Shown here piece after piece: positions 5,828 through 27,669 of a stretch of 64,000 bases of DNA (positions within the stretch are counted from its first letter, which is position 1; every line of letters begins with the position of its first letter). Both the position numbers and the translations under genes were made by a program. The notes below the pieces were generated by a model. The model ran no database searches. It worked only from the letters and a program-made list of their open reading frames with translations, and was not told where the DNA came from. The stretch is from Ancylobacter amanitiformis. Lineage in GTDB: Bacteria; Pseudomonadota; Alphaproteobacteria; Rhizobiales; Xanthobacteraceae. Location: NCBI RefSeq assembly GCF_030814815.1, contig NZ_JAUSVR010000010.1, positions 1-64,000 of the forward strand. The letters run 5' to 3'.

Positions 5828-6748
5828 ATGTTTGTTCGTATTCCCCGCCGTCTCGTCGCCGGGATCGTGAGCGTGATGGCTCTCGCGTTGATGGCGGCCC
5901 CTGCGCGCGCGCAAGAAAAATTCAAGGCCGTCACCACCTTCACGGTCATCGCCGACATGGCGCGCAATGTCGCGGGCGATGCGGCCATCGTGGAATCCAT
6001 CACCAAGCCGGGTGCGGAGATCCACAATTACGCCCCGACGCCGGGTGACATCATCAAGGCGCAGGGCGCCAAGCTCGTGCTGTGGAACGGGCTCAATCTC
6101 GAACTCTGGTTCGAGAAATTTTTCCGCAACCTCAAGAACGTGCCGGGCGTGATCGTCTCGCAGGGCGTCGAGCCCATGGGCATCGCGGAGGGCCCCTATA
6201 GCGGCAAGCCGAACCCGCATGCCTGGATGTCGCCCAGTGCCGCGCTGATCTATGTCGACAACATCCGCGATGCCTTCGTGAAATACGATCCGGCCAATGC
6301 CGAGACCTACAAGGCGAACGCCGCCGCCTACAGCCAAAAGATCACCGATGCCGTCGCCCCGATCCGCGCCGAGCTTGCCGCGATCCCGGAAAACAAGCGC
6401 TGGCTGGTGTCGAGCGAGGGCGCGTTCAGCTATCTCGCGCGCGATTTCGGCCTGAAGGAGCTCTATCTCTGGCCGATCAATGCCGACCAGCAGGGCACGC
6501 CGCAGCAGGTGCGCAAGGTGATCGACAAGGTGCGGGCCGACAACATCCCCGTCGTCTTCAGCGAAAGCACCATCTCGCCCGATCCGGCCAAGCAGGTGGC
6601 CCGCGAGACCGGCGCCCGCTATGGCGGGGTACTCTATGTCGATTCCCTCAGCGAGGCGGACGGCAAGGTGCCGACCTATATCGATCTGCTGCGGGTGACG
6701 TCGCAGACCATTGCCGAGGGTTTGGCCGACAAGAGCGGGGCGCCATGA
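5828..6748 (+). CDS. sitA: Manganese/iron ABC transporter, periplasmic binding protein SitA
   Basis: The 306-residue protein begins with a Sec signal peptide (cleavage likely near APARAQ, about residue 29) and belongs to the ZnuA/PsaA/SitA metal-binding family. The metal ligands can be placed at H66 ([10 protein letters not shown]), H131 (NPHAWMS), E197 ([10 protein letters not shown]) and D272 (VDSLSEADG). The absence of a His-rich loop and the His-His-Glu-Asp set favour Mn2+/Fe2+ over Zn2+. The SDSLSEADG-type ending and the order A-B-C-D match SitABCD. The gene is first in a translationally coupled four-gene operon and follows a candidate Mur operator. Confidence 0.93.
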
Positions 6749-7608
6749 ACGCCTCGCCACTGCCACTGGGAATCGCCGTCACCGACGTCACCGTCACCTA
6801 TCGCAACGGCCACACCGCGCTGCGCGATGCCAGCTTCACCGTGCCCACCGGCACCATCACGGCGCTGGTCGGCGTCAATGGCAGCGGCAAGTCCACCCTG
6901 TTCAAGGCGATCATGGGCTTCGTGCCGGCCTCCAAAGGCTCGATCTCGCTGCTCGGCATGGCGGTGCATCAGGCGCTGAAGCGCAACATCGTCGCCTATG
7001 TGCCGCAGAGCGAGGATGTCGACTGGAACTTCCCCGTCCTGGTCGAGGATGTCGTGATGATGGGCCGCTACGGCCATATGAACATGCTGCGCCTGGCGCG
7101 GGCGCGCGATCATGCGGCCGTGGAGGCGGCGCTGGCCCGCGTGGGCATGAGCGAGTTCCGCAAACGGCAGATTGGCGAGCTCTCGGGCGGGCAGCGCAAG
7201 CGGGTGTTCCTCGCCCGCGCGCTGGCGCAGGATGCCCGCATCATTCTGCTCGACGAGCCCTTCACCGGGGTCGATGTGAAGACCGAGGACGCCATCATCC
7301 AGCTGCTGCGCGCGCTGCGCGACGAGGGCCGCGTGATGCTGGTCTCGACGCATAATCTGGGCAGCGTGCCGGAATTCTGCGACCGCACGGTGCTGGTCAA
7401 GGGCACGGTGCTGGCCTATGGCCCGACGCGCGAGACCTTCACCCAGGCCAATCTGGAAAAGACCTTCGGCGGCGTGCTGCGCCACTTCGTGCTGGAGGAC
7501 GCGCCGCCCGGCCAGCCGCAGGCGGTGAGCCTGATCTCCGACGACGAGCGGCCCTTCGTGGTCTACGGCACGGATGACGGCACCAAGCCGGCGGCGGGCC
7601 CGCGATGA
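6745..7608 (+). CDS. sitB: Manganese/iron ABC transporter ATPase SitB
   Basis: The 287-residue ABC ATPase has a Walker A (GVNGSGKST), Q-loop (VPQSEDVDW), signature ([10 protein letters not shown]), Walker B (IILLDEPF) and H-loop (STHN). Its start overlaps the sitA stop by 4 bp (ATGA), implying translational coupling. The [13 protein letters not shown]-loop region is characteristic of the Mn/Fe/Zn transporter ATPases. It powers metal uptake through SitC and SitD at the inner membrane. Confidence 0.94.
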
Positions 7609-8465
7609 TGGCGCTGCTGCTGGAGCCGTTCGGCTATGGCTACATGGTCAACGCGATGTGGGTCAGCGCCCTGGTCGGCGCGGTGTGCGCGTTCCTCTCC
7701 GCCTATCTCATGCTGAAGGGCTGGTCTCTGATCGGCGACGCGCTGTCGCACGCCATCGTGCCCGGCGTCGCCGGCGCCTACATGCTCGGCCTGCCGTTCT
7801 CGCTGGGCGCGTTCTTCTCGGGCGGGCTTGCCGCTGGCGCCATGCTGCTGCTCAACCAGCGCACCAAGCTGAAGGAAGACGCCATTATCGGCATCATCTT
7901 CACCTCGTTCTTCGGCCTCGGCCTGTTCATGGTGTCGCTGTCGCCGACCTCGGTGAACATCCAGACCATCGTGCTCGGCAACATCCTCGCCATCACGCCG
8001 GAAGACACGCTGCAACTCGCCCTCATCGGGTTCGTCTCGCTCGCCGTGCTGCTCGCCAAATGGAAGGACTTGATGGTGACCTTCTTCGACGAGAGCCATG
8101 CGCGCTCGATCGGCATCAATACGACAGTGCTGAAGATCGTGTTCTTCACCCTGCTATCGGCCTGCACGGTGGCGGCCTTGCAGACCGTCGGCGCCTTTCT
8201 GGTCATCGCCATGGTGGTGACGCCGGGCGCCACCGCCTATCTGCTGACCGACCGTTTTCCCAAGCTGCTGGTGATCAGCGTGGCGATCGGTGCGCTCACC
8301 AGTTTCAGCGGCGCCTATCTCAGCTATTACGTCGACGGCGCCACCGGCGGGATTATCGTGGTGCTGCAAACCCTGATCTTCCTCACCGCGTTCTTTCTCG
8401 CGCCCCAGCACGGTATGCTCGCGGCACGCCGGCGCGCGGCGGATGCGCTGGAGGAAGCGCCATGA
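7605..8465 (+). CDS. sitC: Manganese/iron ABC transporter permease SitC
   Basis: This 286-residue permease of the ABC-3 (ZnuB/MntB) family has about eight to nine hydrophobic segments. The family-typical [25 protein letters not shown] segment follows the first helix. It overlaps sitB by 4 bp. The paralogous gene sitD follows with another 4 bp overlap, so the membrane channel is a SitC/SitD heterodimer. Confidence 0.93.
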
Positions 8466-9307
8466 GCGCGATATTCGAGACGCTGGCGCAGCCCTTCCAG
8501 TTCGAGTTCATGCGCAACGCGCTGCTGATCTCGGTGCTGGTGGCGGTGCCGACCGCGCTGCTGTCGTGCTTCCTCGTGCTCAAGGGCTGGTCGCTGATGG
8601 GCGACGCGATCTCGCACGCCGTGCTGCCCGGCGTGGTGCTCGCCTATATCGCCGGCATTCCCCTGGCGGTGGGCGCGTTCTCGGCCGGCATGGTCTGCGC
8701 GCTCGCCACCGGCTTCCTGAAGGAGAACAGCCGGATCAAGCAGGACACCGTGATGGGGGTGGTGTTCTCCGGCATGTTCGGGCTCGGCATCGTGCTCTAC
8801 ACCAAGATCGAGACCGACATGCATCTCGACCACATATTGTTCGGCGACATGCTGGGCGTGGGCTGGGAGGACATTCTGGAGACCGGCATCATCGCCGCCA
8901 TCACCGCCGGCGTCATCGCGCTGAAATGGCGCGACCTGCTGCTGCACGCCTTCGATCCGGCGCAGGCCAAGGCCATCGGCCTGCCGGTGCGGGTGCTGCA
9001 TTACGGCCTGCTGTGCCTGCTCTCGCTCACCATCGTCGGCGCGTTGAAGGCGGTCGGCATCATTCTGGTGATCGCCATGCTGATCGCGCCGGGCGCCATT
9101 GCCTTCCTGCTGACCCGCACCTTCGGCGCGATGCTGGTGGCGGCCGTGGCCATCGCCACCACGTCATCGCTGGCGGGCGTCTATCTCAGCTTCTTCATCG
9201 ACAGCGCCCCGGCCCCTACCATCGTGCTGCTGATGAGCCTCGGTTTTGTCGGCGCCTTGGCGGTTTCAAGCCAAAAGGCGGTAACGGCAGATCGTCGGGA
9301 GGCGTGA
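8462..9307 (+). CDS. sitD: Manganese/iron ABC transporter permease SitD
   Basis: From the ATG at 8462 ([22 protein letters not shown]) the protein is 281 residues. It is a second ABC-3 family permease, clearly paralogous to SitC (LVLKGWSLMGDAISHAVLPGVVLAY). The reading frame extends further upstream, but the 4 bp overlap with sitC fixes the start. It closes the sit operon; after the stop there are about 110 bp before nasT. Confidence 0.93.
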   Translation: MSAIFETLAQPFQFEFMRNALLISVLVAVPTALLSCFLVLKGWSLMGDAISHAVLPGVVLAYIAGIPLAVGAFSAGMVCALATGFLKENSRIKQDTVMGVVFSGMFGLGIVLYTKIETDMHLDHILFGDMLGVGWEDILETGIIAAITAGVIALKWRDLLLHAFDPAQAKAIGLPVRVLHYGLLCLLSLTIVGALKAVGIILVIAMLIAPGAIAFLLTRTFGAMLVAAVAIATTSSLAGVYLSFFIDSAPAPTIVLLMSLGFVGALAVSSQKAVTADRREA

Positions 9308-9420: not shown

Positions 9421-10011
9421 ATGACGAACGATCCCGGCCTGAAGATCGTCATCGTCGATGCAAGCCCGTTGCGGGCCGCGATCCTCGAAGCCGGGCTGCG
9501 CGAGGCCGGCTATCTCAACGTCATGCGGCTGGCGGAGCACAGCAATCTGCTCGCCCGGCTCCATGCCATCGACCCCGACGTGATCCTGATCGATCTCGAA
9601 GACCCCAGCCGCGACGTCGTCGAGCAGATGTTTCAGGTGTCACGCGAAGTGAAGCGGCCGGTCGCCATGTTCGTCGACCAGTCGGATTCCTCCACCATCG
9701 AGGCGGCGATCGAGGCCGGCGTTTCCGCCTATATCGTCGACGGACTGAAGAAGGAGCGGGTGCGACCGATCGTCGACATGACGATCAGCCGGTTCCGGGC
9801 GTTTTCGCGGCTGCGCGACGAGCTGGAGCAGACCCGCACCGCCCTTGAGGAGCGCAAGACGCTCGACCGGGCCAAGGGCATTCTCATGAAGATGAAGGGG
9901 TTCGACGAGGAGGCCGCTTACGCCTTGCTGCGCCGGACCGCGATGAACGAGAAGAAGCGCATGGTCGACATTGCCCAATCGGTGATCACGGCCGCGGACC
10001 TGTTCAAATGA
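9421..10011 (+). CDS. nasT: NasT-type response regulator with ANTAR RNA-binding domain
   Basis: Residues ~7-125 form a receiver-like domain (LKIVIVDASPLRAAILEAGL...VILIDLED), and the C-terminus (ALEERKTLDRAKGILMKMKG...AYALLRRTAMNEKKRMVDIA) is a typical ANTAR domain, which binds paired hexaloop RNA hairpins and causes antitermination. The protein is 196 residues, the NasT/AmiR length. The ATG at 9421 has AGGA too close upstream; in-frame GTG (9397) and TTG (9409) codons are alternatives. With the adjacent nasS it should switch on the downstream nrt/nir/nas genes when nitrate is present. Confidence 0.88.
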   Translation: MTNDPGLKIVIVDASPLRAAILEAGLREAGYLNVMRLAEHSNLLARLHAIDPDVILIDLEDPSRDVVEQMFQVSREVKRPVAMFVDQSDSSTIEAAIEAGVSAYIVDGLKKERVRPIVDMTISRFRAFSRLRDELEQTRTALEERKTLDRAKGILMKMKGFDEEAAYALLRRTAMNEKKRMVDIAQSVITAADLFK

Positions 10012-10024
10012 GAAGGTGCGCGTC

Positions 10025-11173
10025 ATGAGACGACTTGCCATCGGCTTCATCCCGCTGACCGACGCGGCCGTGCTGATCGCCGCCGCCGAACTGGGCTTTG
10101 CCACGACCGAAGGGCTGGAGATCGACCTGCATCGCGAGGTGTCCTGGGCCAATATTCGCGACAAGGTGAATGTCGGCCTGCTCGACGGCGCCCACATACT
10201 GGCGCCGCTCGCCATCGCCTCCAGCCTCGGGCTCGGCCATGTCCGCGTGCCGCTGGTGGCGCCCTTCGCGCTGAACCTGAACGGCAGCGCGATCACTCTT
10301 GCGCACCCGATCTACGAGGCGATGGAGGCGACCGGGCATGATCTGTCCTCCGGTCTCGGCGTGGCGCAGGCGCTGGGCGAGGTGGTGCGCGCGCGCGCCG
10401 CGCAGGGGCATGACCCGCTGACCTTCTCCACCGTCTACACCTTCTCCACCCACACCTACATGCTGCGGCATGTGCTGGCGGCGGGCGGGCTCGACCCCGA
10501 TCGCGATGTGCGCCTCGTGGTGGTGCCGCCGCCTTTCACGGTGGAGAGCCTGCGCAGCGGGCTAATTCACGGATTTTGCGTCGGCTCGCCCTGGAATGCG
10601 GTGGCGGTGGAAGCCGGCGTCGGGCGCATCGCGCTGCTCGGGCCGGAAATCTTCGGCTGGGCGCCGGAGAAGGTGCTGGGTGTGCATGCCCGCTTCGCCG
10701 AGGCGGAGCCGGACGTGCTGCGCCGGCTGGTGCGCGCGCTGCATGCCGCCGCGCTCTGGAGCGAGGCGGCGGCCAACCGTGCCGAACTGGCGCACCTATT
10801 GTCGGCCCCGGCGTTTCTCGGGCTGCCCGCCGAGGTGCTGGCGCGCATGCTGGAAGGCCGGCTGAACACCACGCAGGCCGGGCTGCCGCGCGAAAATCCC
10901 GACTTCCTCGTGCTGCATCGCGACGGCGCCAACCGGCCGGATGCCCGTCACGCCGCATGGATCTACGCGCAGATGGTGCGGGCGGGGCAGACGACCTATT
11001 CTCCCGACGATGCGCGGGAGGCCGGCGCAGTCTATCGCGCCGATGTCTATGACGATGCTCTCGGCATCGCGCCAGCCGGATCGTCGGTCGGCGACCCGGT
11101 GAAGACCTGCTTCGGCGAGGCGTTCCGGCCGGAAGATCTGGCGGATTATCTGGCGCGGGTGAAGCCGGCTTGA
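10025..11173 (+). CDS. nasS: NasS nitrate/nitrite sensor (cytoplasmic NrtA-like protein)
   Basis: The 382-residue protein is homologous to the nitrate-binding proteins NrtA/CmpA (GFIPLTDAAVLIAAAELGF, DGAHILAPLAIA, PPFTVESLRSG, CVGSPWN) but has no signal peptide, as expected for cytoplasmic NasS. In this family NasS binds and inhibits NasT, and nitrate or nitrite releases it. An AGAAGG site gives correct spacing to the ATG at 10025, 13 bp after nasT. The paralogous TAT-exported NrtA is encoded downstream, so sensing and transport versions of one fold sit in the same locus. Confidence 0.9.
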   Translation: MRRLAIGFIPLTDAAVLIAAAELGFATTEGLEIDLHREVSWANIRDKVNVGLLDGAHILAPLAIASSLGLGHVRVPLVAPFALNLNGSAITLAHPIYEAMEATGHDLSSGLGVAQALGEVVRARAAQGHDPLTFSTVYTFSTHTYMLRHVLAAGGLDPDRDVRLVVVPPPFTVESLRSGLIHGFCVGSPWNAVAVEAGVGRIALLGPEIFGWAPEKVLGVHARFAEAEPDVLRRLVRALHAAALWSEAAANRAELAHLLSAPAFLGLPAEVLARMLEGRLNTTQAGLPRENPDFLVLHRDGANRPDARHAAWIYAQMVRAGQTTYSPDDAREAGAVYRADVYDDALGIAPAGSSVGDPVKTCFGEAFRPEDLADYLARVKPA

Positions 11174-11225
11174 GGCGGGTGGAAAGTCCCGAAAGAGACT
11201 TGCCGGAATAGCGCCGCCAATCGTG

Positions 11226-11258
11226 CCGTCATGGCCGGGACAAGCCCGGCCGTGACGG
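11226..11258 (+). terminator. Stem-loop after nasS, probable terminator
   Basis: CCGTCATGGCCGGG pairs with CCCGGCCGTGACGG (one G-T wobble) around a short ACAAG-type loop, forming a very stable hairpin about 55 bp after the nasS stop. There is no U-tract. The sequence resembles a dispersed GGCCGGG-stem hairpin common in Hyphomicrobiales genomes, so it may be a repeat as well as a transcription boundary. Confidence 0.5.
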
Positions 11259-11309
11259 TCTGATCGTTGTTGGGTCCCGATCCGTCAGTCGTCGCCACCT
11301 CAACCATCT

Positions 11310-11321
11310 GCGCAATTGCGC
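11310..11321. promoter_or_regulatory. 12 bp palindrome upstream of the nrt promoter
   Basis: GCGCAATTGCGC is a perfect palindrome about 140 bp upstream of the sigma54-like promoter, a distance usual for enhancer-binding activators. It does not match the classical NtrC site (GCAC-N7-GTGC) well, so the protein that would bind it is unknown. Confidence 0.3.
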
Positions 11322-11458
11322 GCCACGTGATGCCTGACTTTGCGCCGCTCTCGCCAAGACGAGACGGCACTCACCGCCGGCAAGCGGTCACCGCCGAGGT
11401 CGCGCAAGTCTCTGGCATCAAATGATTTCCGAACCGGATTTGGAACGGCGCCAGAAAC

Positions 11459-11474
11459 TGGCACGGGTCTTGTA
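11459..11474 (+). promoter_or_regulatory. Sigma54-type -24/-12 promoter upstream of nrtA
   Basis: TGGCACG-GGTC-TTGTA matches the RpoN consensus TGGCACG-N4-TTGCA except for one base at the -12 GC (GT here), with exact spacing. It predicts a transcript starting near 11485 and hence a leader of about 180 nt before nrtA. Nitrogen assimilation operons are classical RpoN/NtrC targets. A GCCAG-AAA-CTGGC dyad (11450-11462) overlaps the -24 element. Confidence 0.6.
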
Positions 11475-11543
11475 TTAGATAGTTCTGCCGGTCGGCCAAC
11501 GATGACCCCGGCATTTTCATTTCGAAGCCCAGCGGTGGGTCCC

Positions 11544-11581
11544 CAGCAAAGATGCTGATTCCGCGACGGTTCAGCCCGTCG
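11544..11581 (+). promoter_or_regulatory. Leader hairpin pair, candidate NasT (ANTAR) target
   Basis: Two adjacent hairpins each have a six-base loop. CAGC/GCTG encloses AAAGAT, and CGACGG/CCGTCG encloses TTCAGC; six bases separate them. ANTAR proteins recognise two hexaloop hairpins with A at loop position 1 and G at position 4. The first loop fits; the second does not. The second stem competes with a possible pairing of GCGACG (11563-11568) with CGTCGC (11604-11609), as in an antitermination switch. No U-tract is visible, so this is tentative. Confidence 0.4.
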
Positions 11582-11663
11582 GGATCGGCACTTCTATGCG
11601 TTTCGTCGCCGCGTTGGCTTCCATGGCACGCGCGGCTTCTCGAAGACATCCGAGGGCTCAGCC

Positions 11664-13010
11664 ATGACATTTCGCATGCCAATCATCCGCCGTCATTCCG
11701 CCAAGGCCACATCCCCGGCCACGGGTATTTCCCGGCGCTCGCTGCTGAAATCCTCCGCCGCCACGCTGGCGACCGCCGCGCTGTTCGATGCCATCCACAT
11801 GGCGTTCCCCGGCGGCGTGCCGGACGCTCATGCCGCGACGCCGGAAACCACCAAGGCGGTGCTCGGCTACATCGCCCTGATGGATGCGGCGCCGCTGGTC
11901 ATCGCCAAGGAAAAGGGCCTGTTCGCCAAATATGGCGTGCCCGATGTCGAGGTGAACAAGCAGGCCTCCTGGGGCGCCACGCGCGACAATCTGGTGCTCG
12001 GGGGGGCGGCCAACGGCATTGACGGCGCCCATATCCTCTCGCCGATGCCCTACCTCATCTCGACCGGCAAGGTAACGCAGAACAGCGTGCCGACGCCGAT
12101 GTACATCCTCGCGCGGCTCAATCTCGACGCGCAGGCGATCTCGGTCTCCAATGACTACAAGGACCTCAACGTCACCGCCGACGCCTCGGCGCTGAAAGCC
12201 GCCTTTGCCGCCAAGAAGGCGGCCGGCAAGGAGGTCAAGGTCGCGATGACCTTCCCCGGTGGCACCCACGATCTCTGGCTGCGCTACTGGCTGGCGAGCG
12301 CCGGCATCGACCCTGACAAGGATGTCTCCACCATCGTGGTGCCGCCGCCGCAAATGGTGGCGAACATGAAGGTCGGCAACATGGACGCGTTCTGCGTCGG
12401 CGAGCCGTGGAACGAGCAACTGGTCAACCAGGGCATCGGCTTCACCGCCTGCACGACCGGCGAAATCTGGAAGCTCCACCCGGAAAAGGCGCTCGGCATG
12501 CGCGCCGACTTCGTCGACGCCAACCCCAACACCGCAAAGGCCATCGTGATGGCTGTCATGGAAGCCCAGCAATGGTGCGACCAGATGGGCAACAAGGAAG
12601 AAATGGCCACCATCGTCGGCAAGAGGCAATGGTTCAATGTCCCGGTCGCCGACATCATCGGCCGGGCGCGCGGCGACATCAATTACGGCAATGGCCGGGT
12701 GGTGAAGGGGTCCGACCAGTATATGCGATTCTGGGCCGACCACGCCTCCTACCCCTTCAAGAGCCATGACACCTGGTTCGTTACCGAGGACATCCGCTGG
12801 GGCAAGTTCGACCCGGCGATCGACGTGAAGGGCCTGGTCGACAAGGTCAACCGCGAGGACGTCTGGCGCGCCGCCGCCAAAGAGTTGGGCGTATCCGACG
12901 TGCCGGCGACGTCGTCGCGCGGCAAGGAGACCTTCTTCGACGGCAAGGTGTTCGATCCCGAAAACCCGGCCGCCTATCTCGCCAGCCTCGACATCAAGCG
13001 CGTGGCGTGA
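11664..13010 (+). CDS. nrtA: Nitrate ABC transporter substrate-binding protein NrtA
   Basis: The 448-residue protein carries a twin-arginine signal (SRRSLLKSSAATLATAALF, cleavage near DAHA/AT) and the NrtA/CmpA fold. Visible motifs are the GYIALMDAAPLVIAKEKGLF opening, the SWGATRDNLVLG and GAHILSP motifs, and the FCVGEPWNEQ segment near the ligand site. It delivers nitrate (and probably nitrite) to NrtB/NrtC at the inner membrane. It follows a ~490 bp leader region and is separated from nrtB by a strong hairpin, suggesting higher expression of the binding protein. Confidence 0.93.
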   Translation: MTFRMPIIRRHSAKATSPATGISRRSLLKSSAATLATAALFDAIHMAFPGGVPDAHAATPETTKAVLGYIALMDAAPLVIAKEKGLFAKYGVPDVEVNKQASWGATRDNLVLGGAANGIDGAHILSPMPYLISTGKVTQNSVPTPMYILARLNLDAQAISVSNDYKDLNVTADASALKAAFAAKKAAGKEVKVAMTFPGGTHDLWLRYWLASAGIDPDKDVSTIVVPPPQMVANMKVGNMDAFCVGEPWNEQLVNQGIGFTACTTGEIWKLHPEKALGMRADFVDANPNTAKAIVMAVMEAQQWCDQMGNKEEMATIVGKRQWFNVPVADIIGRARGDINYGNGRVVKGSDQYMRFWADHASYPFKSHDTWFVTEDIRWGKFDPAIDVKGLVDKVNREDVWRAAAKELGVSDVPATSSRGKETFFDGKVFDPENPAAYLASLDIKRVA

Positions 13011-13108: not shown

Positions 13109-14002
13109 ATGTCCGTCTCCGTACTGAAAACCAAACCGGCCCAGCCTCCTCGTCAAAGCGCCGAGGTCGTGACGCTCGCCTTGCCGCGCAAGGCGGTGAA
13201 GCCCAGCCGCCTGCAGGCGATGGCGCATAGCCTCGCCGTCTCGGTGGTGCCGCCGACGATCGTCATCCTGCTGCTGCTCGGCTTCTGGGAACTGCTGTGC
13301 GGCGGACCCGGCGCGACGCTGCCGCCGCCTTCCACCATCTGGCAGGAATCCTACGACCTCATCGTCAACCCGTTCTTCGTCAACGGCTCGCAGGATATCG
13401 GCCTCGGCTGGCGGGTGCTGATCTCGCTGCAGCGGGTGGCGATCGGCTTCGGGCTGGCGGCGGTGGTCGGCATTCTCATGGGCGTGGTGATCGGGCAATC
13501 GGTGTGGGCGATGCGCGGGCTCGACCCGGTGTTCCAGGTGCTGCGCACCGTGCCGCCGCTGGCCTGGCTGCCGATCGCGCTCGCCGCGTTCCGCGATTCC
13601 AGCCCCTCGGCGATCTTCGTCATCTTCATCACCGCGATCTGGCCGGTGATCATCAACACGGCGGTCGGCGTGCGCAACATCCCGCAGGACTACCGCAACG
13701 TGGCGCTGGTGCTGCGGCTCAACGCGCTGGAATTCTTCGGCAAGATCATGCTGCCGGCGGCGGCGCCCTACATCTTCACCGGCCTGCGCATCGGCATCGG
13801 CCTGTCCTGGCTCGCCATCGTCGCGGCGGAAATGCTCACCGGCGGGGTCGGCATCGGCTTCTTCATCTGGGACGCGTGGAACTCCTCGCGCCTGTCCGAC
13901 ATCATCGTGGCGCTCGTCTATATCGGCGTGGTCGGGTTCATCCTCGACCGCGTCGTTGCCGGCATCGGCGCCTTCGTCACCCGTGGCACCCAAGCCGCGT
14001 GA
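13109..14002 (+). CDS. nrtB: Nitrate ABC transporter permease NrtB
   Basis: The 297-residue membrane protein has about six transmembrane helices and the permease EAA-type loop (RLNALEFFGKIMLPAAAPYIFTGLRIGIG) that contacts the ATPase. Similarity pattern and context (nrtA upstream, nrtC downstream) place it in the NrtB/SsuC/TauC family. The Pro-rich hydrophilic N-terminus of ~45 residues is cytoplasmic. Confidence 0.92.
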   Translation: MSVSVLKTKPAQPPRQSAEVVTLALPRKAVKPSRLQAMAHSLAVSVVPPTIVILLLLGFWELLCGGPGATLPPPSTIWQESYDLIVNPFFVNGSQDIGLGWRVLISLQRVAIGFGLAAVVGILMGVVIGQSVWAMRGLDPVFQVLRTVPPLAWLPIALAAFRDSSPSAIFVIFITAIWPVIINTAVGVRNIPQDYRNVALVLRLNALEFFGKIMLPAAAPYIFTGLRIGIGLSWLAIVAAEMLTGGVGIGFFIWDAWNSSRLSDIIVALVYIGVVGFILDRVVAGIGAFVTRGTQAA

Positions 14003-14025
14003 CCTTGCCGCCTGAGGAGGCTCCC

Positions 14026-14820
14026 ATGACCGCTTATCTCAAGCTCGACCACATCGACAAATCCTTCGCGCGCGGCGGCAGCACCACCGAAGTTCTGCGC
14101 GAGGTCTCGCTGGACATCGCCAAGGGCGAGTACATCTCGGTGATCGGCCATTCCGGCTGCGGCAAGTCCACGCTGCTCAACATCGTCGCCGGGCTGACGC
14201 CGGTGACCAATGGCGGCGTGATCCTCGAGGGGGTCGAGGTCAACAGCCCCGGCCCCGACCGCGCCGTGGTGTTCCAGAACCACTCGCTGCTGCCGTGGCT
14301 CAGCGTCTATGACAATGTGAAGCTGGCCGTCGACAAGGTGTTCTCCGGCGTCAAATCGCGCGCCGAGCGCCATGAGTGGTGCGTGCACAATCTCGATCTC
14401 GTGCAGATGGGCCATGCCAGGGACAGGCGCCCCTCGGAAATCTCCGGCGGCATGAAGCAGCGCGTCGGCATCGCCCGCGCGCTCGCCATGCAGCCCAAGG
14501 TGCTGCTGCTGGACGAGCCGTTCGGCGCGCTGGACGCGCTGACCCGCGCGCATCTGCAGGATTCCGTCATGCAGATCCATGCCAGCCTCGGCAACACCGT
14601 GATCATGATCACCCATGATGTCGACGAGGCGGTGCTGCTGTCCGACCGCATCGTGATGATGACCAACGGTCCCGCCGCCGGCATTGGCGACGTGCTCGAC
14701 GTGCCGATGGCGCGCCCGCGCCGCCGGCTCGAACTGGTCACCGACCCGGCCTATCTCAAATGCCGCGAGGCGGTGCTGAAGTTCCTCTATGAGCGCCACC
14801 GCTTCGTCGAAGCGGCGTGA
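14026..14820 (+). CDS. nrtC: Nitrate ABC transporter ATP-binding protein
   Basis: From the ATG at 14026, with GAGGAGG seven to eight bases upstream, the protein is 264 residues. It has Walker A (GHSGCGKST), signature (ISGGMKQRVGIARAL), Walker B (VLLLDEPFGALD) and the H-loop (ITHDVDEAV). It is a single-domain NrtD/TauB-like ATPase, lacking the NrtA-like regulatory C-terminal domain of cyanobacterial NrtC, so nitrate inhibition of transport through that domain is not expected. A longer upstream frame exists but is a shadow of nrtB. Confidence 0.92.
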   Translation: MTAYLKLDHIDKSFARGGSTTEVLREVSLDIAKGEYISVIGHSGCGKSTLLNIVAGLTPVTNGGVILEGVEVNSPGPDRAVVFQNHSLLPWLSVYDNVKLAVDKVFSGVKSRAERHEWCVHNLDLVQMGHARDRRPSEISGGMKQRVGIARALAMQPKVLLLDEPFGALDALTRAHLQDSVMQIHASLGNTVIMITHDVDEAVLLSDRIVMMTNGPAAGIGDVLDVPMARPRRRLELVTDPAYLKCREAVLKFLYERHRFVEAA

Positions 14821-14827
14821 GGGCGAC

Positions 14828-16066
14828 ATGAGCGAGCCCCTCATCGTCATCGGCAACGGCATGGCGGCCGCCAAGTTCTGCGAGGAACTGGCGAACCAGG
14901 GCCTCGGCCGCTACTCCGTGGCCGTGATCGGTGCCGAGCCGCACCTTGCCTATAATCGCGTGCTGCTGTCCTCGCTGCTCGCTGGCGAGGTCACGGCCGG
15001 CGACATCGAATTGCGCAGCCGCGACTGGTGGCGCGCACGCGGCGTCACGCTGATCTATGGGCGGCCGGCGATTTCCGTCGATACCGACCAGAATCGCGTG
15101 AACCTCGCGGACGGCTCGTCGCTGGGCTTCTCGAAGCTGGTGCTGGCGACCGGCTCGCACCCGATCCGCCTGCCGATCCCCGGCATGGAGCTTCCCGGCG
15201 TCATGACCTTCCGCGACATGGCGGATGTCGACGCGCTGCTCGCGGCCGCCAAGCCCGGCACGCGTGCCATCGTCATCGGCGGCGGCCTGCTCGGGCTGGA
15301 GGCTGCCACCGGCATAGCCGGGGCCGGCGTGCAGACCACCGTCATCCACCTGATGGACCGGCTGATGGAGCGCCAGCTCGACGCCCGCGCCGGTGCCCTG
15401 CTCAGACAAGCCGTCGAGGCACGCGGCATCGAGGTGTTGCTGGGCGCTTCCACCGCCGCCATCGCGGGCGAGGGGAGGGTCGAGGGCCTACGCCTCAGCG
15501 ATGGGCGCTTGCTGCTGGCCGATCTCGTCATCGTGGCCTGCGGCGTGCGGCCCAATGCCGATCTCGCCCGCGCCGCCGGGCTGGACTGCAATCGCGGCGT
15601 CATCGTCGACGATGGGTTGGCCACCAGCCATCCCGCCATCCACGCCATTGGCGAATGCGCCGAGCATCGCGGCCAGGTCTATGGTCTCGTCGAACCGGCC
15701 TATGAGCATGCCCGCGTGCTGGCGCGCCGCCTTTCCGGCAAGTCCGCCGCCTATGCCGGGAGCGTCACCGCGACCAACCTCAAGGTTTCCGGTGTCCATG
15801 TGTTCTCGGCCGGCGATTTTACCGGCGGGGAGGGCACGCAGGATATCGTGCTGTCCGATCCCGGCATCGGCCTCTATCGCCGCCTCATCCTGCGCCAGGA
15901 CGCCTCTGGCACAAGGCTGATCGGCGCGGTGCTGTTCGGCGACACTGCCGACGGCCTGTTCTACCTCGACCTTATCCGAACCGGTCGCGACATAGGCGGC
16001 GAGCGCGCCGACCTCGCCTTCGGTCCCAATCTCATGACCGATCTCAAAACCACGGAGGCCGCGTGA
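14828..16066 (+). CDS. FAD/NAD(P)-dependent oxidoreductase of nitrate assimilation (NirB N-terminus/NasC-like)
   Basis: The 412-residue protein has an FAD-binding GNGMAAAKFCEEL start, a second dinucleotide fold (VIGGGLLGLEAATGI) and the ATGSHP and GECAEHRGQVYGLVEPAYEHA segments shared with the N-terminal half of NirB. The siroheme half is absent. The likely role is passing electrons from NAD(P)H to the nitrate reductase NasA, like Klebsiella NasC, because nitrite reductase here has its own reductase partner encoded downstream. It begins 7 bp after nrtC and overlaps nirA by one base. Confidence 0.85.
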   Translation: MSEPLIVIGNGMAAAKFCEELANQGLGRYSVAVIGAEPHLAYNRVLLSSLLAGEVTAGDIELRSRDWWRARGVTLIYGRPAISVDTDQNRVNLADGSSLGFSKLVLATGSHPIRLPIPGMELPGVMTFRDMADVDALLAAAKPGTRAIVIGGGLLGLEAATGIAGAGVQTTVIHLMDRLMERQLDARAGALLRQAVEARGIEVLLGASTAAIAGEGRVEGLRLSDGRLLLADLVIVACGVRPNADLARAAGLDCNRGVIVDDGLATSHPAIHAIGECAEHRGQVYGLVEPAYEHARVLARRLSGKSAAYAGSVTATNLKVSGVHVFSAGDFTGGEGTQDIVLSDPGIGLYRRLILRQDASGTRLIGAVLFGDTADGLFYLDLIRTGRDIGGERADLAFGPNLMTDLKTTEAA

Positions 16067-17841
16067 TGGGCACCGAATTCTCCGCCGAGCAGAAGCGCTA
16101 TCTGGAAGGCTTCGTCTCCGGCCTCGCCGCCACCCGCGCCGCCGGCGGGCTGACCGGCAGCGCCGCTCCCGCCCCCGCAGTTGCGGCTGAGCCGACCGGC
16201 CCGGATGCGAGCGCCCACCGCGCGATGGCCCGCACCGAGGCTTCAGGCCGCAAGCTGGTGCCCGAGGAAAAGGGCAAGCGCGAGGAACTCGGCCTCGATT
16301 CCTATGCGCGGATGAAGCAGCACGCCCGCGACGGCGTGTTTCCCAAGGGCCCGGATATTTTTCGCTGGAAATTCCACGGCCTGTTCTATGTCGCGCCGAC
16401 GCAGGACAGTTTCATGTGCCGGCTACGCATTCCCAATGGCATCCTGAAATACTGGCAGTTCGCTGGCGTAGCCGACATCGCGGCCACCCATGCCGGCGGC
16501 TACAGCAACGTCACCACCCGCGCCAATCTGCAGGTGCGCGAGATCCCCGCCACCGATGGGCCGATCCTGCTGGAGAAGCTGATCGGCCTCGGCCTCACCT
16601 CGCGCGGCGCCGGCGCCGACAATATCCGCAACGTCACCGGCGGGCCGACCGCCGGCATCGACCCGCAGGAACTGCTCGATACCCGCCCCTATGCGCTCGA
16701 CTGGCATCACCACATCCTCGCCGACCGCTCGCTCTACGGCCTGCCGCGCAAGTTCAATGTCGCCTTTGATGGCGGCGGGCGGATCGGCGCGCTGGAGGAC
16801 ACCAACGACATCGGCTTCCAGGCCGTCGAGGTAGCGGACGGTTTCGGCGTCGAGCCCGGCGTGTGGTTCCGCCTCGTGCTGGGCGGCATTACCGGCCATC
16901 TCGACCTCGCCCGCGACACCGGGGTGATCGTGCGCCCGCAGGACGCGACCAGGCTGGCCGACGCCATCGTGCGGGTGTTCATCGACCATGGCGACCGCAC
17001 CGACCGCAAGAAGGCGCGGCTGAAATACCTTCTCGACGCCTGGGGCTTCGAGAAGTTCTTGGCGGCGACCGAGGAGAAGCTGGGCACCCCGCTCATCCGC
17101 GTGGCGGCGCAGGCCGTCGCCAAGCGGCCGGAGCCGGACCGGCTCGGTCATGTCGGCGTCCATGCCCAGAAACAGCCGGGGCTGAATTGGGTCGGCGTGG
17201 TGCTGCCGGTCGGCAAGATGACCGCGGAGCAGATGCACGGCCTCGCCCGCATCGCCCGCGATCTCGGCGATGGCGACCTGCGGCTCACCGTCTGGCAGAA
17301 CCTCATTCTCTCGGGCGTGTCCGACGCCAATGTCGCCCTCGTCGAGGCCGCGCTGGAAGCGCTGGGCCTTACCTCGCGCGCCACGGCCATTCGCGCCGGG
17401 CTGGTGGCCTGCACCGGAGCGGCCGGCTGCAAGTTCGGCAATGCCGACACCAAGGCAACCGCCGAGGCCATCGCCCGCCATTGCGAGGAGAGGGTGGAGA
17501 TCGACCAGCCGGTGAACATCCACGTCACCGGCTGCCACAATTCCTGTGCGCAGCATTACATCGGCGATATCGGGCTGGTCGGCGCCCGCGTGCCGGTGAG
17601 CGAGGATGGCGATACGGTGGAGGGCTATCACCTCGTGGTCGGTGGCGGGTTCGGCGCCGACGCCGCCATCGGGCGCGAACTCTATCGCGACGTGAGGGCG
17701 GACGACGCGCCAAGGGTGGTCGAAGGGCTGCTCAAGACCTGGATCGCCCGCCGCGCCACCCCCACCGAGACGCTCGCCCAGTTCACCCGTCGCCATGAGC
17801 CGGAGGCTTTGCGCGCGCTTGTCGAGGAGGCTGCGGAATGA
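16066..17841 (+). CDS. nirA: Assimilatory siroheme nitrite reductase NirA
   Basis: The 591-residue protein contains the paired nitrite/sulfite reductase ferredoxin-like half domains and the siroheme/4Fe-4S ligand cysteines C449, C455 (CTGAAGC), C490 and C494 (CHNSC). It reduces nitrite to ammonium with six electrons. The start ATG at 16066 shares its A with the previous stop and has GGAGG at good spacing. The N-terminus has FSAEQKRYLEGFVSGL, echoed in the next gene's product. Single-subunit NirA normally takes electrons from ferredoxin; the flavoprotein encoded next is the probable donor. Confidence 0.93.
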   Translation: MGTEFSAEQKRYLEGFVSGLAATRAAGGLTGSAAPAPAVAAEPTGPDASAHRAMARTEASGRKLVPEEKGKREELGLDSYARMKQHARDGVFPKGPDIFRWKFHGLFYVAPTQDSFMCRLRIPNGILKYWQFAGVADIAATHAGGYSNVTTRANLQVREIPATDGPILLEKLIGLGLTSRGAGADNIRNVTGGPTAGIDPQELLDTRPYALDWHHHILADRSLYGLPRKFNVAFDGGGRIGALEDTNDIGFQAVEVADGFGVEPGVWFRLVLGGITGHLDLARDTGVIVRPQDATRLADAIVRVFIDHGDRTDRKKARLKYLLDAWGFEKFLAATEEKLGTPLIRVAAQAVAKRPEPDRLGHVGVHAQKQPGLNWVGVVLPVGKMTAEQMHGLARIARDLGDGDLRLTVWQNLILSGVSDANVALVEAALEALGLTSRATAIRAGLVACTGAAGCKFGNADTKATAEAIARHCEERVEIDQPVNIHVTGCHNSCAQHYIGDIGLVGARVPVSEDGDTVEGYHLVVGGGFGADAAIGRELYRDVRADDAPRVVEGLLKTWIARRATPTETLAQFTRRHEPEALRALVEEAAE

Positions 17842-19457
17842 ACGCCCCAACGCCCGTTCCCCCGATCATCTCGTTCTTCCCCGAGACGGCGCCGTTCAAC
17901 GAGGAGCAACGCGCCTGGCTGAACGGCTTCTTCGCCGGCATGCTCGCGCCGCAGGGTGCGCCCACCGCTTTGTCCGCCACCGAAAATGCCGCGCAGATGC
18001 CGGCCACCGTCGACGATGGCGCTGACGATGGCGCGCCCTGGCACGACGCCTCCATGCCGCTCGACGAGCGATTGAGGCTGGCCGAGGGCAAGCCGCTGCC
18101 GCGCCGGATGATGGCGGCGATGGCGCAGCAGGATTGCGGCCAATGCGGCTATCTCTGCGAGACCTATGCCGCCGCCATCGCGTCGGCCAAGGAAACGAAA
18201 CTCAACCTGTGCGCGCCGGGTGGCAAAGAGACGACCCGGGCGCTGAAGGCGCTCGCCGCCGAACTCGGGGCCCAGCCCCCGGACGCGGTGCCCGCACGTG
18301 CCGGAAATGTCGCGCCGGATACGCACGGAACCGCGCTCCCCGCAGCGCCTTGCAGCCGCGACAACCCGGCGCTGGTGACGCTGACCGCCCGGCATCGCCT
18401 GAACAAGGACGGCTCGGAGAAGGAGACCTGGCATGTCGAGTTCGACATCGATCAATCCGGCCTCGACTACGCCGTCGGCGACAGTTTCGGGGTATTTCCA
18501 GAGAACGATCCAGGCCTTGTGGCTGCCTTGCTGGAAGCGCTCGGCGCCACGTCGCAGGATATGGTCGGCGAGCGCCACGCCGCCGACGTGCTGGCGCGCG
18601 ACATCTGCCTCGGCGCCGCGCCGGACAGCCTGTTCCAGTTATTGACCTACCACACCGGCGGCGAGATGCGCCGCAAAGCCCGCGCCTTGGCCGCCGGTGA
18701 GGACCCGGACGGTGACGCGGCAACCCTCGATGTGCTTGCCGCTATTGAGAAATTCGGTCGCCCGCGCATCGCGCCGGAAGTGCTTATCGAGGCGCTGGAG
18801 CCGCTGCAGCCGCGCCTCTACTCGATCTCGTCGAGCCCGAAGGCGACGCCCGGCCGGCTGTCTCTGACCGTCGATACGGTGCGCTACCGCGTCGGCGACC
18901 GTACCCGCCTTGGCGTCGGTTCGACCTTTCTGGCGGGCCGGCTGGATCAGGCCACCCCGATGCGCGCCTATGTCCAGAAAGCCCACGGCTTCGCCCTGCC
19001 GACCGACCCCGCGACCCCCGTCATCATGGTCGGCCCCGGCACCGGCATCGCCCCGTTCCGCGCCTTCCTGTGGGAGCGCATGGCCATGAAGGCTCCGGGC
19101 CGCAACTGGTTGTTCTTCGGCCACCAGCGCAGCGACTGCGATTTCTTCTATGAGGATGAACTGGTCGGCATGCGCGCCTCCGGCCATTTGCCGCGCCTGA
19201 CGCTGGCCTGGTCGCGCGATGCGTCCGAGAAGGTCTATGTGCAGGACCGCATGCGCGAGGTCGGTGCCGACCTGTTCGGCTGGCTGGAGGACGGCGCGCA
19301 TTTCTACATTTGCGGCGACGCCAAGCGCATGGCGCGCGACGTCGAGCACGCGCTGGTCGATATCGTCGCGGCCCATGGCACGCGCTCGTCCGCTGATGCG
19401 CAAGCCTATGTGATCGCACTGAAAAGAGCGGGTCGCTACCAGGCGGACGTTTATTGA
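17838..19457 (+). CDS. CysJ-like NADPH reductase with N-terminal Fe-S domain, nitrite reductase partner
   Basis: The C-terminal ~370 residues are an FNR-type flavoprotein like CysJ and cytochrome P450 reductase: RLYSISSSPK binds FAD, VGPGTGIAPFRAFLWER and the C-terminal FYICGDAKRMARDV and RYQADVY bind NADPH. There is no flavodoxin (FMN) domain. Instead residues ~95-130 carry C100, C103, C107 and C125 (DCGQCGYLCETY...LNLC), a probable 4Fe-4S cluster. Residues 20-35 (FNEEQRAWLNGFFAGM) match a segment at the start of NirA. It overlaps nirA by 4 bp and presumably supplies NADPH electrons to it. Confidence 0.85.
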   Translation: MNAPTPVPPIISFFPETAPFNEEQRAWLNGFFAGMLAPQGAPTALSATENAAQMPATVDDGADDGAPWHDASMPLDERLRLAEGKPLPRRMMAAMAQQDCGQCGYLCETYAAAIASAKETKLNLCAPGGKETTRALKALAAELGAQPPDAVPARAGNVAPDTHGTALPAAPCSRDNPALVTLTARHRLNKDGSEKETWHVEFDIDQSGLDYAVGDSFGVFPENDPGLVAALLEALGATSQDMVGERHAADVLARDICLGAAPDSLFQLLTYHTGGEMRRKARALAAGEDPDGDAATLDVLAAIEKFGRPRIAPEVLIEALEPLQPRLYSISSSPKATPGRLSLTVDTVRYRVGDRTRLGVGSTFLAGRLDQATPMRAYVQKAHGFALPTDPATPVIMVGPGTGIAPFRAFLWERMAMKAPGRNWLFFGHQRSDCDFFYEDELVGMRASGHLPRLTLAWSRDASEKVYVQDRMREVGADLFGWLEDGAHFYICGDAKRMARDVEHALVDIVAAHGTRSSADAQAYVIALKRAGRYQADVY

Positions 19458-22183
19458 TGAACGCGCAGATTCCGCCTGTCGCTCCCACGGTCCAGCCCGT
19501 CATGCGCACGACCTGTCCCTATTGCGGCGTCGGCTGCGGCGTTCTCGCAAGCCCGGACGGGGCGGGCGGCGCCTCGATCGCCGGCGACCCCGACCATCCC
19601 GCCAATTTCGGCCGGCTTTGCTCGAAGGGTTCGGCGCTGGGCGAGACGCTGGGGCTGGAAACGCGCCTTCTCCACCCGATGGCGCGCGGCAGGGATGGCC
19701 GAATGGCTCGTGCCGATTGGGATACGGCGATCGGCTCGATCGCACAAGCCTTTGGGAAAACAATAGAAACTCACGGTCCCGATGCCGTCGCGATCTATCT
19801 CTCGGGACAATTGCTGACCGAGGATTATTACGCCGCCAACAAGCTCGCCAAGGGCTTCCTCGGCACCGCGAATGTCGACACCAATTCGCGGCTCTGCATG
19901 GCCTCCTCCGTCGCCGGCCATCGCCGCGCCTTTGGCTCGGACACCGTGCCGGGCGTCTATGCCGATCTCGACGAGGCCGATCTCGTCGTGCTGATCGGCT
20001 CCAATGCGGCGTGGTGCCACCCCATCCTGTTTCGCCGCCTGGAAGCCGCCCGCGCCATGCGCGGCACCAAGCTCGTCGTCATCGACCCGAGGCGCACCGC
20101 GACCGGCGACGAGGCCGACCTGTTCCTGCCGGTAAATCCCGGAAAGGACACGGTTCTGTTCGCGGGGTTGCTGGCCTGGCTGGCGGACCATGACGCGTTG
20201 GACCATGCCTATATCGACGCCCACACCACGGGCCTCGCCGACACGCTGGCCGGCGCCCGCGCGATGGCGCCTGATATCGCGGCCGTGGCGCGCGAGACCG
20301 GGGTTTCCGCCGCAGACCTCGTGCAATTCTACACCCTGTTCGCCACCCATGAGCGCGCGGTCACCTGCTATTCGCAGGGCGTGAACCAGTCGGCGCAAGG
20401 CACCGACAAGGTGAACGCCATCATCAACGTCCATCTTGCCACCGGCCGCATCGGCCGTCCCGGCATGGGCCCGTTCTCCCTCACCGGCCAGCCCAACGCG
20501 ATGGGCGGGCGCGAGGTTGGCGGACTTGCCAACCAACTCGCCGCGCACATGAATTTCACGCCGGTCGAGATCGACCGGGTGCGGCGGTTCTGGCAGGCGC
20601 CGCGCTTGGCCGAGCGCGAGGGGCTGAAGGCGGTTGCCATGTTCGAGGCCATCGCCGCCGGCCGCATCAAGGCGCTGTGGATCATGGGCACCAACCCGGC
20701 GGTGAGCCTGCCGCGCGCCGGGGCCATGCGCGAGGCTTTGGAATCGCTGGATTTTCTCGTCGTTTCCGAGAATGTCGCGAGCAACGACACGCTGTCGTGC
20801 CGGCCGCATCTGGTGCTGCCCGCGCTTGCCTGGGGCGAGAAGGACGGCACTGTCACCAATTCCGAGCGCCGGATTTCCCGTCAGCGGGCGTTTCTGCCGC
20901 CGCCCGGCGAGGCGCGACCGGACTGGTGGGCAATCGCGCAGGTCGGCCGGCGGCTGGGCTTCGACGAGGCCTTCGCCTGGCGCAGCGCCGCCGATGTGTT
21001 TCGCGAACATGCCGCCCTGTCCGCCTTCGAGAATGACGGCAGCCGGGATTTCGACCTCAGTGGCCTCGCCATGCTCGATGATGCCGCCTTCAACATCATG
21101 GCGCCGGTGCAGTGGCCCGTCCGATCGGCAGGCGATAGCGCCGACAAGCGCTTCTTCGCCGACGGTCATTTCTTCACGCCCGATCACCGGGCGCGCTTCG
21201 TGACGCCGAAGCCCGCCCGGCTGGCGCGCGAGACCAGCACCGATTTTCCTTTTATTCTCAACACCGGCCGCATTCGCGACCAGTGGCACACCATGACGCG
21301 AACCGGCCTCAGCCCCCGGCTTGGCGCGCATCTGCCCGTGCCATTCGTCGAGATCCACCCGTCGGATGCCACAAAACTCGGCATTGAGCATGGCGGGTTG
21401 GTTTCACTGCGATCCGCTCACGGCAGCGCCGTGGTCGAGGCGCGGTTGAGCGTCGGCCAGAAGCGCGGCGCGCTGTTCGCGCCCATCCACTGGTCCGATG
21501 CCACGTCGTCAAATGCGCGGATCAACGATCTGGTCGCGCGGATCACGGACCCGGTCTCGGGCCAGCCGGAATCCAAGGCGACGCCGGTTGCCGCGATGGC
21601 TCTGCCGGTGCGCTACCGTGGTTTCGTGCTGAGCCGTAGGCCCGTCACGGAGCTTCCCGCCACCTGGTGGGCGAAGGTCGCGCTGGAAGGTGGCGCGGGC
21701 TACCTCACGGCGACCGATCTTGGACCGGAGGAATGGAAGCGTCATACGGCGAAAATTCTGCTCACCAGCGACTATGCCGAATATGTCGATGCACCGGGCG
21801 GCGTGTATCGCGCCGCCGCCTTCGATGAGGCTGGCGCGCTTACAGGCGCCGTTTTCCTGTCGCCCAGTGGCGCCCCGGCGTCGTGGGACGGGCTGAAGGC
21901 GCTGCTGGCCGCCCGGACGCTGAGTTCAGTGGGCCGCCGCAACCTGCTCTCCGGCCGCGGCGAGGGACAGATCACGCCGCGCGGGCCCCTGGTCTGCGCG
22001 TGCTTCGCGGTCTCCGCCCCGCAGATCGAGCAGGCGCTTGCCAGTGAGTCGGGCGCCGATGTCGCGCGCCTCGGCCAGTTGTTGCGAGCGGGGACGAATT
22101 GTGGCTCCTGCGTACCGGAGTTGAAGAAGCTCATTCGGCAGAGGGCCATGCTGGACATGGCTACCATTACGCCGCCAGCGTGA
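19457..22183 (+). CDS. nasA: Assimilatory nitrate reductase catalytic subunit NasA
   Basis: The 908-residue molybdopterin oxidoreductase has an N-terminal 4Fe-4S motif C20, C23, C27 and C55 (TCPYCGVGCGV...LCSKGS), the bis-MGD-binding core (NSRLCMASSVAG, GTNPAVSLPRA) and a C-terminal molybdopterin dinucleotide domain. The last ~60 residues are a BFD-type [2Fe-2S] domain (CACFAVSAPQIEQAL...GTNCGSCVPELK). It reduces nitrate to nitrite in the cytoplasm, drawing electrons probably through the FAD protein at 14828. The ATG shares a base with the previous stop; it is the last gene of the operon. Confidence 0.94.
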   Translation: MNAQIPPVAPTVQPVMRTTCPYCGVGCGVLASPDGAGGASIAGDPDHPANFGRLCSKGSALGETLGLETRLLHPMARGRDGRMARADWDTAIGSIAQAFGKTIETHGPDAVAIYLSGQLLTEDYYAANKLAKGFLGTANVDTNSRLCMASSVAGHRRAFGSDTVPGVYADLDEADLVVLIGSNAAWCHPILFRRLEAARAMRGTKLVVIDPRRTATGDEADLFLPVNPGKDTVLFAGLLAWLADHDALDHAYIDAHTTGLADTLAGARAMAPDIAAVARETGVSAADLVQFYTLFATHERAVTCYSQGVNQSAQGTDKVNAIINVHLATGRIGRPGMGPFSLTGQPNAMGGREVGGLANQLAAHMNFTPVEIDRVRRFWQAPRLAEREGLKAVAMFEAIAAGRIKALWIMGTNPAVSLPRAGAMREALESLDFLVVSENVASNDTLSCRPHLVLPALAWGEKDGTVTNSERRISRQRAFLPPPGEARPDWWAIAQVGRRLGFDEAFAWRSAADVFREHAALSAFENDGSRDFDLSGLAMLDDAAFNIMAPVQWPVRSAGDSADKRFFADGHFFTPDHRARFVTPKPARLARETSTDFPFILNTGRIRDQWHTMTRTGLSPRLGAHLPVPFVEIHPSDATKLGIEHGGLVSLRSAHGSAVVEARLSVGQKRGALFAPIHWSDATSSNARINDLVARITDPVSGQPESKATPVAAMALPVRYRGFVLSRRPVTELPATWWAKVALEGGAGYLTATDLGPEEWKRHTAKILLTSDYAEYVDAPGGVYRAAAFDEAGALTGAVFLSPSGAPASWDGLKALLAARTLSSVGRRNLLSGRGEGQITPRGPLVCACFAVSAPQIEQALASESGADVARLGQLLRAGTNCGSCVPELKKLIRQRAMLDMATITPPA

Positions 22184-27433: not shown

Positions 27434-27669
27434 GAGCCGCGCCTCACGCCGTCAAGCCGGCTCGGCGAGATCCGCGGTCGCTGCGCCGGCACTGCCGGAC
27501 CGCTCCCTGGACACGCAGCGGCGCAGGCCGCGCCCGATATCGGTTCAATCAATTCTAGCAACTCTCCTATTTTTGCACCGCACATCCTATATTGCTGGGG
27601 AGGAGATACGCGCGCCATCCTGTCGACTTCGCGGGGACGGGGCGCCGGCTCCCAAGCGATGGGACGGCG

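Follow-up and report, generated by a model that had tools for sequence, protein, structure and literature searches.

The region analysed here is the leader that separates nasS from nrtA in Ancylobacter amanitiformis, within a 64-kb stretch of DNA (64,000 nt, called the window throughout) from a genome of 4.84 Mb. The leader measures 490 nt, in agreement with the roughly 490 bp given by a first-pass annotation made from the sequence alone. It follows two adjacent genes, one for a protein with receiver and ANTAR domains and one for an NrtA-like protein without N-terminal leader, which constitute the gene pair of a NasS-NasT sensor (Table 1). The closest named match at nasT, from Ancylobacter rudongensis, is 98% identical; the Pfam Response_reg and ANTAR models both match above cut-off, which bears out the earlier call of an ANTAR protein, and the best solved relative is EutV (6wsh/6ww6, E 6e-20). 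When the two receivers are aligned, NasT has VDG in place of EutV's VKP. The lysine of this VKP is presumably the receiver lysine, and its absence from NasT would be easier to reconcile with control by NasS binding than with control by phosphorylation. NasS (NMT1_2) is 31% identical to the window's NrtA and begins right at the conserved domain; it had been described as a signal-less NrtA paralogue and is indeed one. Its relatives in the PDB are the C-terminal domain of NrtC/CmpC and NrtA (2g29). Judged against its relatives, the leader appears to be a real and ordinary member of a family of NasT leaders with a conserved sigma54-type promoter; what is unusual in it is that the uridine tract (U-tract) behind its terminator-type hairpin is missing.

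Table 1. Genes and leader elements of the nasT-nrtA region, in window coordinates
Feature	Position	Strand	Basis
Candidate metal-type ATP-binding cassette (ABC) transporter, substrate-binding protein	5828-6748		reading of open-reading-frame list
Same transporter, ATPase	6745-7608		reading of open-reading-frame list
Same transporter, two permease frames			reading of open-reading-frame list
nasT, receiver (REC) and ANTAR antiterminator protein, 196 aa	9421-10011	+	Pfam PF00072, PF03861
nasS, leaderless NrtA-like sensor protein	10016-11173	+	PF13379 (NMT1_2)
sigma54-type promoter TGGCACG-GGTC-TTGTA	11459-11474	+	recurs in 66/70 leaders
P1 hexaloop hairpin gcccAGCGGTgggt (A1, G4)	11527-11540	+	folding, conservation in relatives
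P2 hexaloop hairpin cagcAAAGATgctg (A1, G4)	11544-11557	+	folding, conservation in relatives
Competing terminator-type hairpin; 5' arm includes P2 loop and P2 3' arm	11546-11599	+	folding, compensatory changes
Further conserved stem between competing hairpin and nrtA start	11608-11636	+	12 aligned Ancylobacter-group leaders
nrtA, nitrate ABC transporter substrate-binding protein	11664-13010	+	phmmer to NrtA 2g29, E 5.5e-170
nrtB permease	13109-14002	+	TIGR01183 above cut-off
Nitrate transporter ATPase (nrtC/D type)	14023-14820	+	TIGR01184 above cut-off
Oxidoreductase resembling NirB N-terminal half (FAD/NAD)	14789-16066	+	TIGR02374 positions 1-396, below cut-off; PF07992
NirA-family nitrite reductase	16063-17841	+	NF007126 above cut-off
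CysJ-like flavoprotein reductase	17838-19457	+	NF004859 above cut-off
Molybdopterin oxidoreductase with BFD-like [2Fe-2S] domain	19454-22183	+	PF00384, PF01568, PF04879, PF04324

Folding of positions 11520-11560 yields two neighbouring small hairpins, P1 (GCCC-AGCGGT-GGGT) and P2 (CAGC-AAAGAT-GCTG), joined by a linker of 3 nt in the window and of 2-3 nt in the related loci L036-L043. The folding program closes an A1-U6 pair in both loops and leaves four bases unpaired; we take the loops as six bases, AGCGGT and AAAGAT, each with A at position 1 and G at position 4 (A1/G4), so that P1 and P2 together form a dual six-base-loop (hexaloop) element. P2 in turn overlaps the 5' arm of a longer downstream hairpin of -26.5 kcal/mol (z -4.41; no shuffle out of 200 was equally stable), which belongs to the minimum-energy fold of the full leader. 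Because this competing hairpin takes up the loop and the 3' arm of P2, the two structures are mutually exclusive.

The comparison rests on 70 leaders. Of these, 56 come from a set of 81 loci, namely the window and 80 that were fetched, and a further 14 were included manually from other loci. The 56 were selected because they have the P2 core GCAANGNNGC at a distance of over 100 nt behind nasS; the conservation of P2 among the 70 is therefore built in. Loci without the core were excluded, as were matches lying in other sequence (L046, the first match of L054, L055, L057, L071, L076 and L109); L054 returned to the set with a later site. By their P2 loop, 31 leaders (AACGA[AG]) were classed as nirA-type and the other 39 as nrtA-type; the gene found directly behind nasS is nrtA in 24 of the 39 and nirA in 28 of the 31, the remainder being unlabelled.

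In the nine closest loci, L035-L043, P1 and P2 recur at the same place between nasS and nrtA, as gccc-A..G..-ggg[ct] followed by [ct][ag]gc-AA.G..-gctg. Across an alignment of 23 leaders, 96.7% of the stem cells are paired and four of the eight pairs carry two-sided changes, a result that none of 500 shuffles matches. The first-pass annotation was to be given up if a comparative alignment showed no conserved paired hairpins; the alignment contains such a pair, P1 and P2, conserved with covariation. Where nrtA or nirA stands directly behind nasS, the P2 core is present in 52 of 55 leaders (24/27 and 28/28, respectively). It was not found in the nrtA leaders L061, L063 and L067, nor in L060, in which nrtA is split and which is not counted. 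L060 (7130-7600), L061 (1700-2160) and L067 have cagc-GACGCC-gctg in the place of P2 and a T-run behind the competing arm; since G occupies position 1 of this loop, the A1 rule is not absolute. An A1/G4 six-base P1 loop on at least three pairs occurs in 29 of the 39 nrtA-type leaders; among the nirA-type leaders an A1/G4 six-base P1 occurs in one of 31 (L099), by chance pairing. The nirA leaders of the Bradyrhizobium type keep P2 with its AACGA[AG] loop, and in the 19 of them that were aligned (for example L056:7961-7993 and L066:7962-7994) P1 takes the form of a stem whose loop has five bases (gtccAAGATggat and similar).

The competing hairpin is likewise maintained. In most nrtA-type leaders the loop and 3' arm of P2 pair with a downstream GCGGC-like arm that is followed by a T-run. 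In an alignment of 12 leaders of the Ancylobacter group (11 of them distinct), 93% of the cells of this hairpin are paired and six pairs show two-sided changes, a number reached by 11 of 500 shuffles; its covariation score beats all 500, and further pair types are no more numerous than in shuffles (284/500). AAAGAT is the P2 loop of the window and L035, AA[AT]GCC that of the other ten; the downstream arm differs correspondingly, and column pair 36-73 is U-A in the window and L035 and C-G in the rest. The U-tract behind the hairpin was measured as the best T-score over 15 bases, values above 3.9 being called good. It is good in 31 of the 39 nrtA-type leaders, and the scores under 3.9 are those of L043 (3.32), L098 (3.18), the window and L035 (2.69) and L039-L042 (2.68). 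Among the 31 nirA-type leaders none has a good U-tract, the highest score being 3.47. Because the U-tract of most nrtA-type leaders is missing here, intrinsic termination at nrtA is uncertain in the lineage of the window, and since the window shows no intrinsic terminator with a U-tract, we use the term antitermination leader for likeness and descent. The nasTS tree did not separate one from two losses of the U-tract in Ancylobacter.

The leader hairpins co-occur with NasT. They were assembled into a covariance model, R1, for which a match of at least 29 bits was called strong; genomes with a NasT match of E below 1e-40 were counted as NasT-positive. In a search of 61 genomes with stricter filters, R1 gave a strong match in 25 of the 29 genomes with NasT and in none of the 32 without it (best 26.5 bits), a tally that is partly circular because 18 of the 25 genomes contributed sequences to the model. 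Within the genome of the window R1 has a single strong match, the nrtA leader itself at 38.4 bits, and the next reaches 20.8. A second model, R2, from which the window and its closest relative L035 were left out, still ranks the window site first genome-wide: it scores 26.9 bits (E about 0.02, a rough value), the runner-up 21.5. The 16 further R1 matches in this genome reach 15.2-20.8 bits, and nine of them were inspected, as short sequence stretches only; no second NasT target is claimed, though weak ones may exist. The R1 match inside the window, at 28056-28089 on the minus strand, falls in an open frame of the opposite strand (27592-28836) and was regarded as a chance hit. A second NasT lineage, 48-49% identical, is present in five genomes of the genus (L029, L030, L031; G002, G009), together with a similar dual hexaloop; the leaders L029-L031 have a good U-tract and, by pattern, no sigma54 element. 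At L044 some 2.3 kb separate nasS from nrtA, and the RNA switch stands before nrtA (8071-8107), not behind nasS.

Upstream of the hairpins the first-pass annotation had pointed to a sigma54 promoter, TGGCACG-N4-TTGTA; the motif is present, and this element of the -24/-12 type proves to be conserved in position. The pattern TGG[CT][AC][CT]-N6-TG precedes the P2 core in 66 of the 70 leaders (35/39 nrtA-type and 31/31 nirA-type), all except L120, L029, L030 and L031, at a distance from the core of 66-88 nt in 64 of the 66 (full range 56-117). Of 56 elements inspected, 53 start with TGGCAC, 32 end in TTGAA and 15 in TTGTA, the form of the window; the canonical -12 part of sigma54 promoters, TTGC, is rare among them. 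A scan for sigma70 promoters found none. The genome encodes both RpoN and NtrC. The sequence upstream of the promoter was scanned for 17-mers resembling the NtrC consensus: 21 of 56 leaders contain a site with one mismatch or none, where single-base shuffles would lead one to expect 3.1. These are 14/24 nrtA leaders, 5/28 nirA leaders and 2/4 unlabelled ones.

Comparison supports a putative dual hexaloop target of the NasT type in the nrtA leader, and we consider it highly probable that the region acts as a two-layer switch of nitrate assimilation, with initiation by NtrC and sigma54 and control of the leader hairpins by NasT. Under nitrogen limitation, NtrC and sigma54 would start transcription near 11484, given that sigma54 transcripts begin about 12 nt after the -12 element. 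In the absence of nitrate, NasS would hold NasT, and the nascent leader would fold into the competing hairpin and use up P2, so that transcription of nrtA and the genes downstream would fall. Nitrate or nitrite would cause NasS to release NasT, which could then bind the A1/G4 hexaloops of P1 and P2; with P2 held in its short form, the competing hairpin would be blocked and the nrtABC-nirA-nasA-type cluster transcribed. The analysis itself shows how the leader is built, that this layout is conserved and covaries, and that it co-occurs with NasT; we infer the RNA binding, the release by nitrate, the start of transcription and the termination by the competing hairpin. The expected weak point is the terminator, which in this lineage is without a good U-tract and may leak or need another factor. 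In its outline this scheme is the one first proposed, RpoN-dependent initiation followed by NasT-dependent elongation; the sigma54 element and, by comparison, the dual hexaloop target were retained, but the assignment of the hairpins had to be changed.

Several observations, besides the circularity already mentioned, weigh against the proposed switch. An A1/G4 P1 on at least three pairs was not found in ten of the 39 nrtA-type leaders (L049, L051, L064, L073, L077, L081, L082, L086, L114 and L123). Four of the 29 NasT genomes (G034, G046, G051 and G060) gave no strong R1 match under the stricter filters, although in the leader of G034 (L120) the P2 core is present, with a weak A1/G4 P1. The R2 score of the window, 26.9 bits, lies near the 26.5 that the best NasT-free genome attains under R1. 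The best NtrC-like site of the window has two mismatches and falls outside the 21 of 56, and the fold of the full leader has a z of only -1.62. Neither the window nor L035 and L039-L042 has a good U-tract, and a terminator scan picked up one terminator in L036 and none in the leader of the window. The window's linker has 3 nt, a length that cut the induction of eutP in Enterococcus faecalis (PMC3369931).

The missing U-tract invites the alternative of a switch without intrinsic terminator, in which the competing hairpin would pause the polymerase, expose the leader to Rho or act post-transcriptionally, and NasT would relieve the effect. The compensatory changes of the competing hairpin, kept despite the weak U-tract in the window, L035 and L039-L042, are consistent with this, as is the lack of a good U-tract in all 31 leaders whose P2 loop is of the Bradyrhizobium nirA type. 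We nonetheless think it unlikely: a weak terminator may merely be leaky, and the good U-tract in 31 of the 39 nrtA-type leaders argues for intrinsic termination as the usual mechanism. Somewhat less likely still is that part of Ancylobacter has lost the U-tract but preserved the competing hairpin of the dual-hexaloop switch through compensatory change, so that NasT may there control a hairpin without intrinsic termination. If this were true, the NasT-controlled hairpin could be Rho-linked, pausing or post-transcriptional, and the nirA leaders of the Bradyrhizobium type would be a second case, in which P1 has also been cut to a five-base loop.

The pair chosen by the first-pass annotation, 11544-11557 with 11564-11581, is a far weaker candidate. 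Both stems are able to form, and the first, which does carry the A1/G4 loop, is recovered by folding; its partner, however, is the overlooked P1, which the relatives keep together with P2. The second stem (CGACGG-TTCAGC-CCGTCG) is the tip of the competing hairpin, also in the relatives, where its loop is variable. The reported deviation of the TTCAGC loop from the consensus disappears, because the true pair is P1 and P2 and this loop is no part of it. The annotation thus identified the system correctly but mistook the hairpins that form the pair, and we regard its version as very improbable. Least credible of all is chance pairing in GC-rich DNA: the window contains 18 dual A1/G4 hairpin pairs, P1/P2 among them, so that the bare motif is not rare and by motif alone P1/P2 is no more than chance, but conservation, covariation and co-occurrence with NasT place it above chance by comparison. 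Rfam gave no match in the whole window at the gathering threshold and, at a permissive threshold, a single microRNA-family match (E 3.2) in 11150-11700.

The genes behind the leader agree with a nitrate-assimilation cluster of the nrtABC-nirA-nasA type. NrtA, unlike NasS, is extended at its N-terminus and carries there a twin-arginine-like leader, which the Pfam model TAT_signal scores at 19.9 bits, under its cut-off of 22.7. The molybdopterin oxidoreductase at the end of the series is matched by NCBIfam nitrate-reductase models under their cut-offs, and by its context it is an assimilatory nitrate reductase. The stem between the competing hairpin and nrtA has 98.7% of its cells paired among 11 distinct sequences, with a single pair changed on both sides and a covariation score reached by 48 of 500 shuffles; since this support from covariation is weak, we propose no function for it. 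On the 5' side of nasT (5828-9307) lies a candidate metal-type ABC transporter, named from the open-reading-frame list only.

The nrtA and nirA leaders of the Hyphomicrobiales provide an alignable family of putative NasT targets in which the order of sigma54 promoter, P1, P2 and competing hairpin is fixed. Some of its members have a U-tract and others do not, and the same holds for the six-base P1 loop; these natural variants lend themselves to testing whether an intrinsic terminator and both hexaloops are required. A literature search, which left most subscription journals outside its coverage, surfaced a single paper, on arsenic, for Ancylobacter together with nitrate and NasT, and, among the 12 of 64 papers listed, no title that links the ANTAR domain with Rho.

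In Paracoccus denitrificans nitrate dissociates NasS-NasT, NasT binds the nasA leader RNA, and hairpin I of that leader is required for induction (PMC3795266, PMC5424462). The window resembles this system in having nasT-nasS before the nas operon, a leader with hairpins and an NtrBC layer. It differs in its first target gene, nrtA for an ABC transporter in place of nasA, and in the placing of the promoter element: the Paracoccus NtrC site lies before nasT, with none yet reported before nasA (PMC5424462), whereas in the window the sigma54-type element directly precedes the RNA switch. With EutV of E. faecalis the window shares ANTAR homology and two short A1/G4 six-base-loop hairpins, the second of which overlaps a terminator stem; the report that describes this arrangement also predicted such targets before nitrate/nitrite transporters (PMC3369931), and the minimal ANTAR binding unit is a single hexaloop (PMC8934654). 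Unlike NasS-NasT, EutV receives its signal, ethanolamine, through a histidine kinase, and its targets have intrinsic terminators and, at eutP, natural linkers of 5-12 nt, induction being reduced with 3 nt, the length found in the window (PMC3369931). The characterised relatives closest by taxonomy are those of Bradyrhizobium diazoefficiens, where NasT of the same family acts on leader hairpins; its targets are different ones, nosR and nirA (PMC6759348), and the related nirA leaders show the five-base P1 loop and no good U-tract. Finally, the nasF leader of Klebsiella oxytoca combines Ntr-dependent activation with nitrate-responsive ANTAR antitermination by NasR (PMC5424462, PMC3369931), a single protein with NIT and ANTAR domains where the window has separate NasS and NasT. 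Because Klebsiella nas already joins Ntr/sigma54 control to ANTAR antitermination, the switch proposed for Ancylobacter would be one of a known kind.

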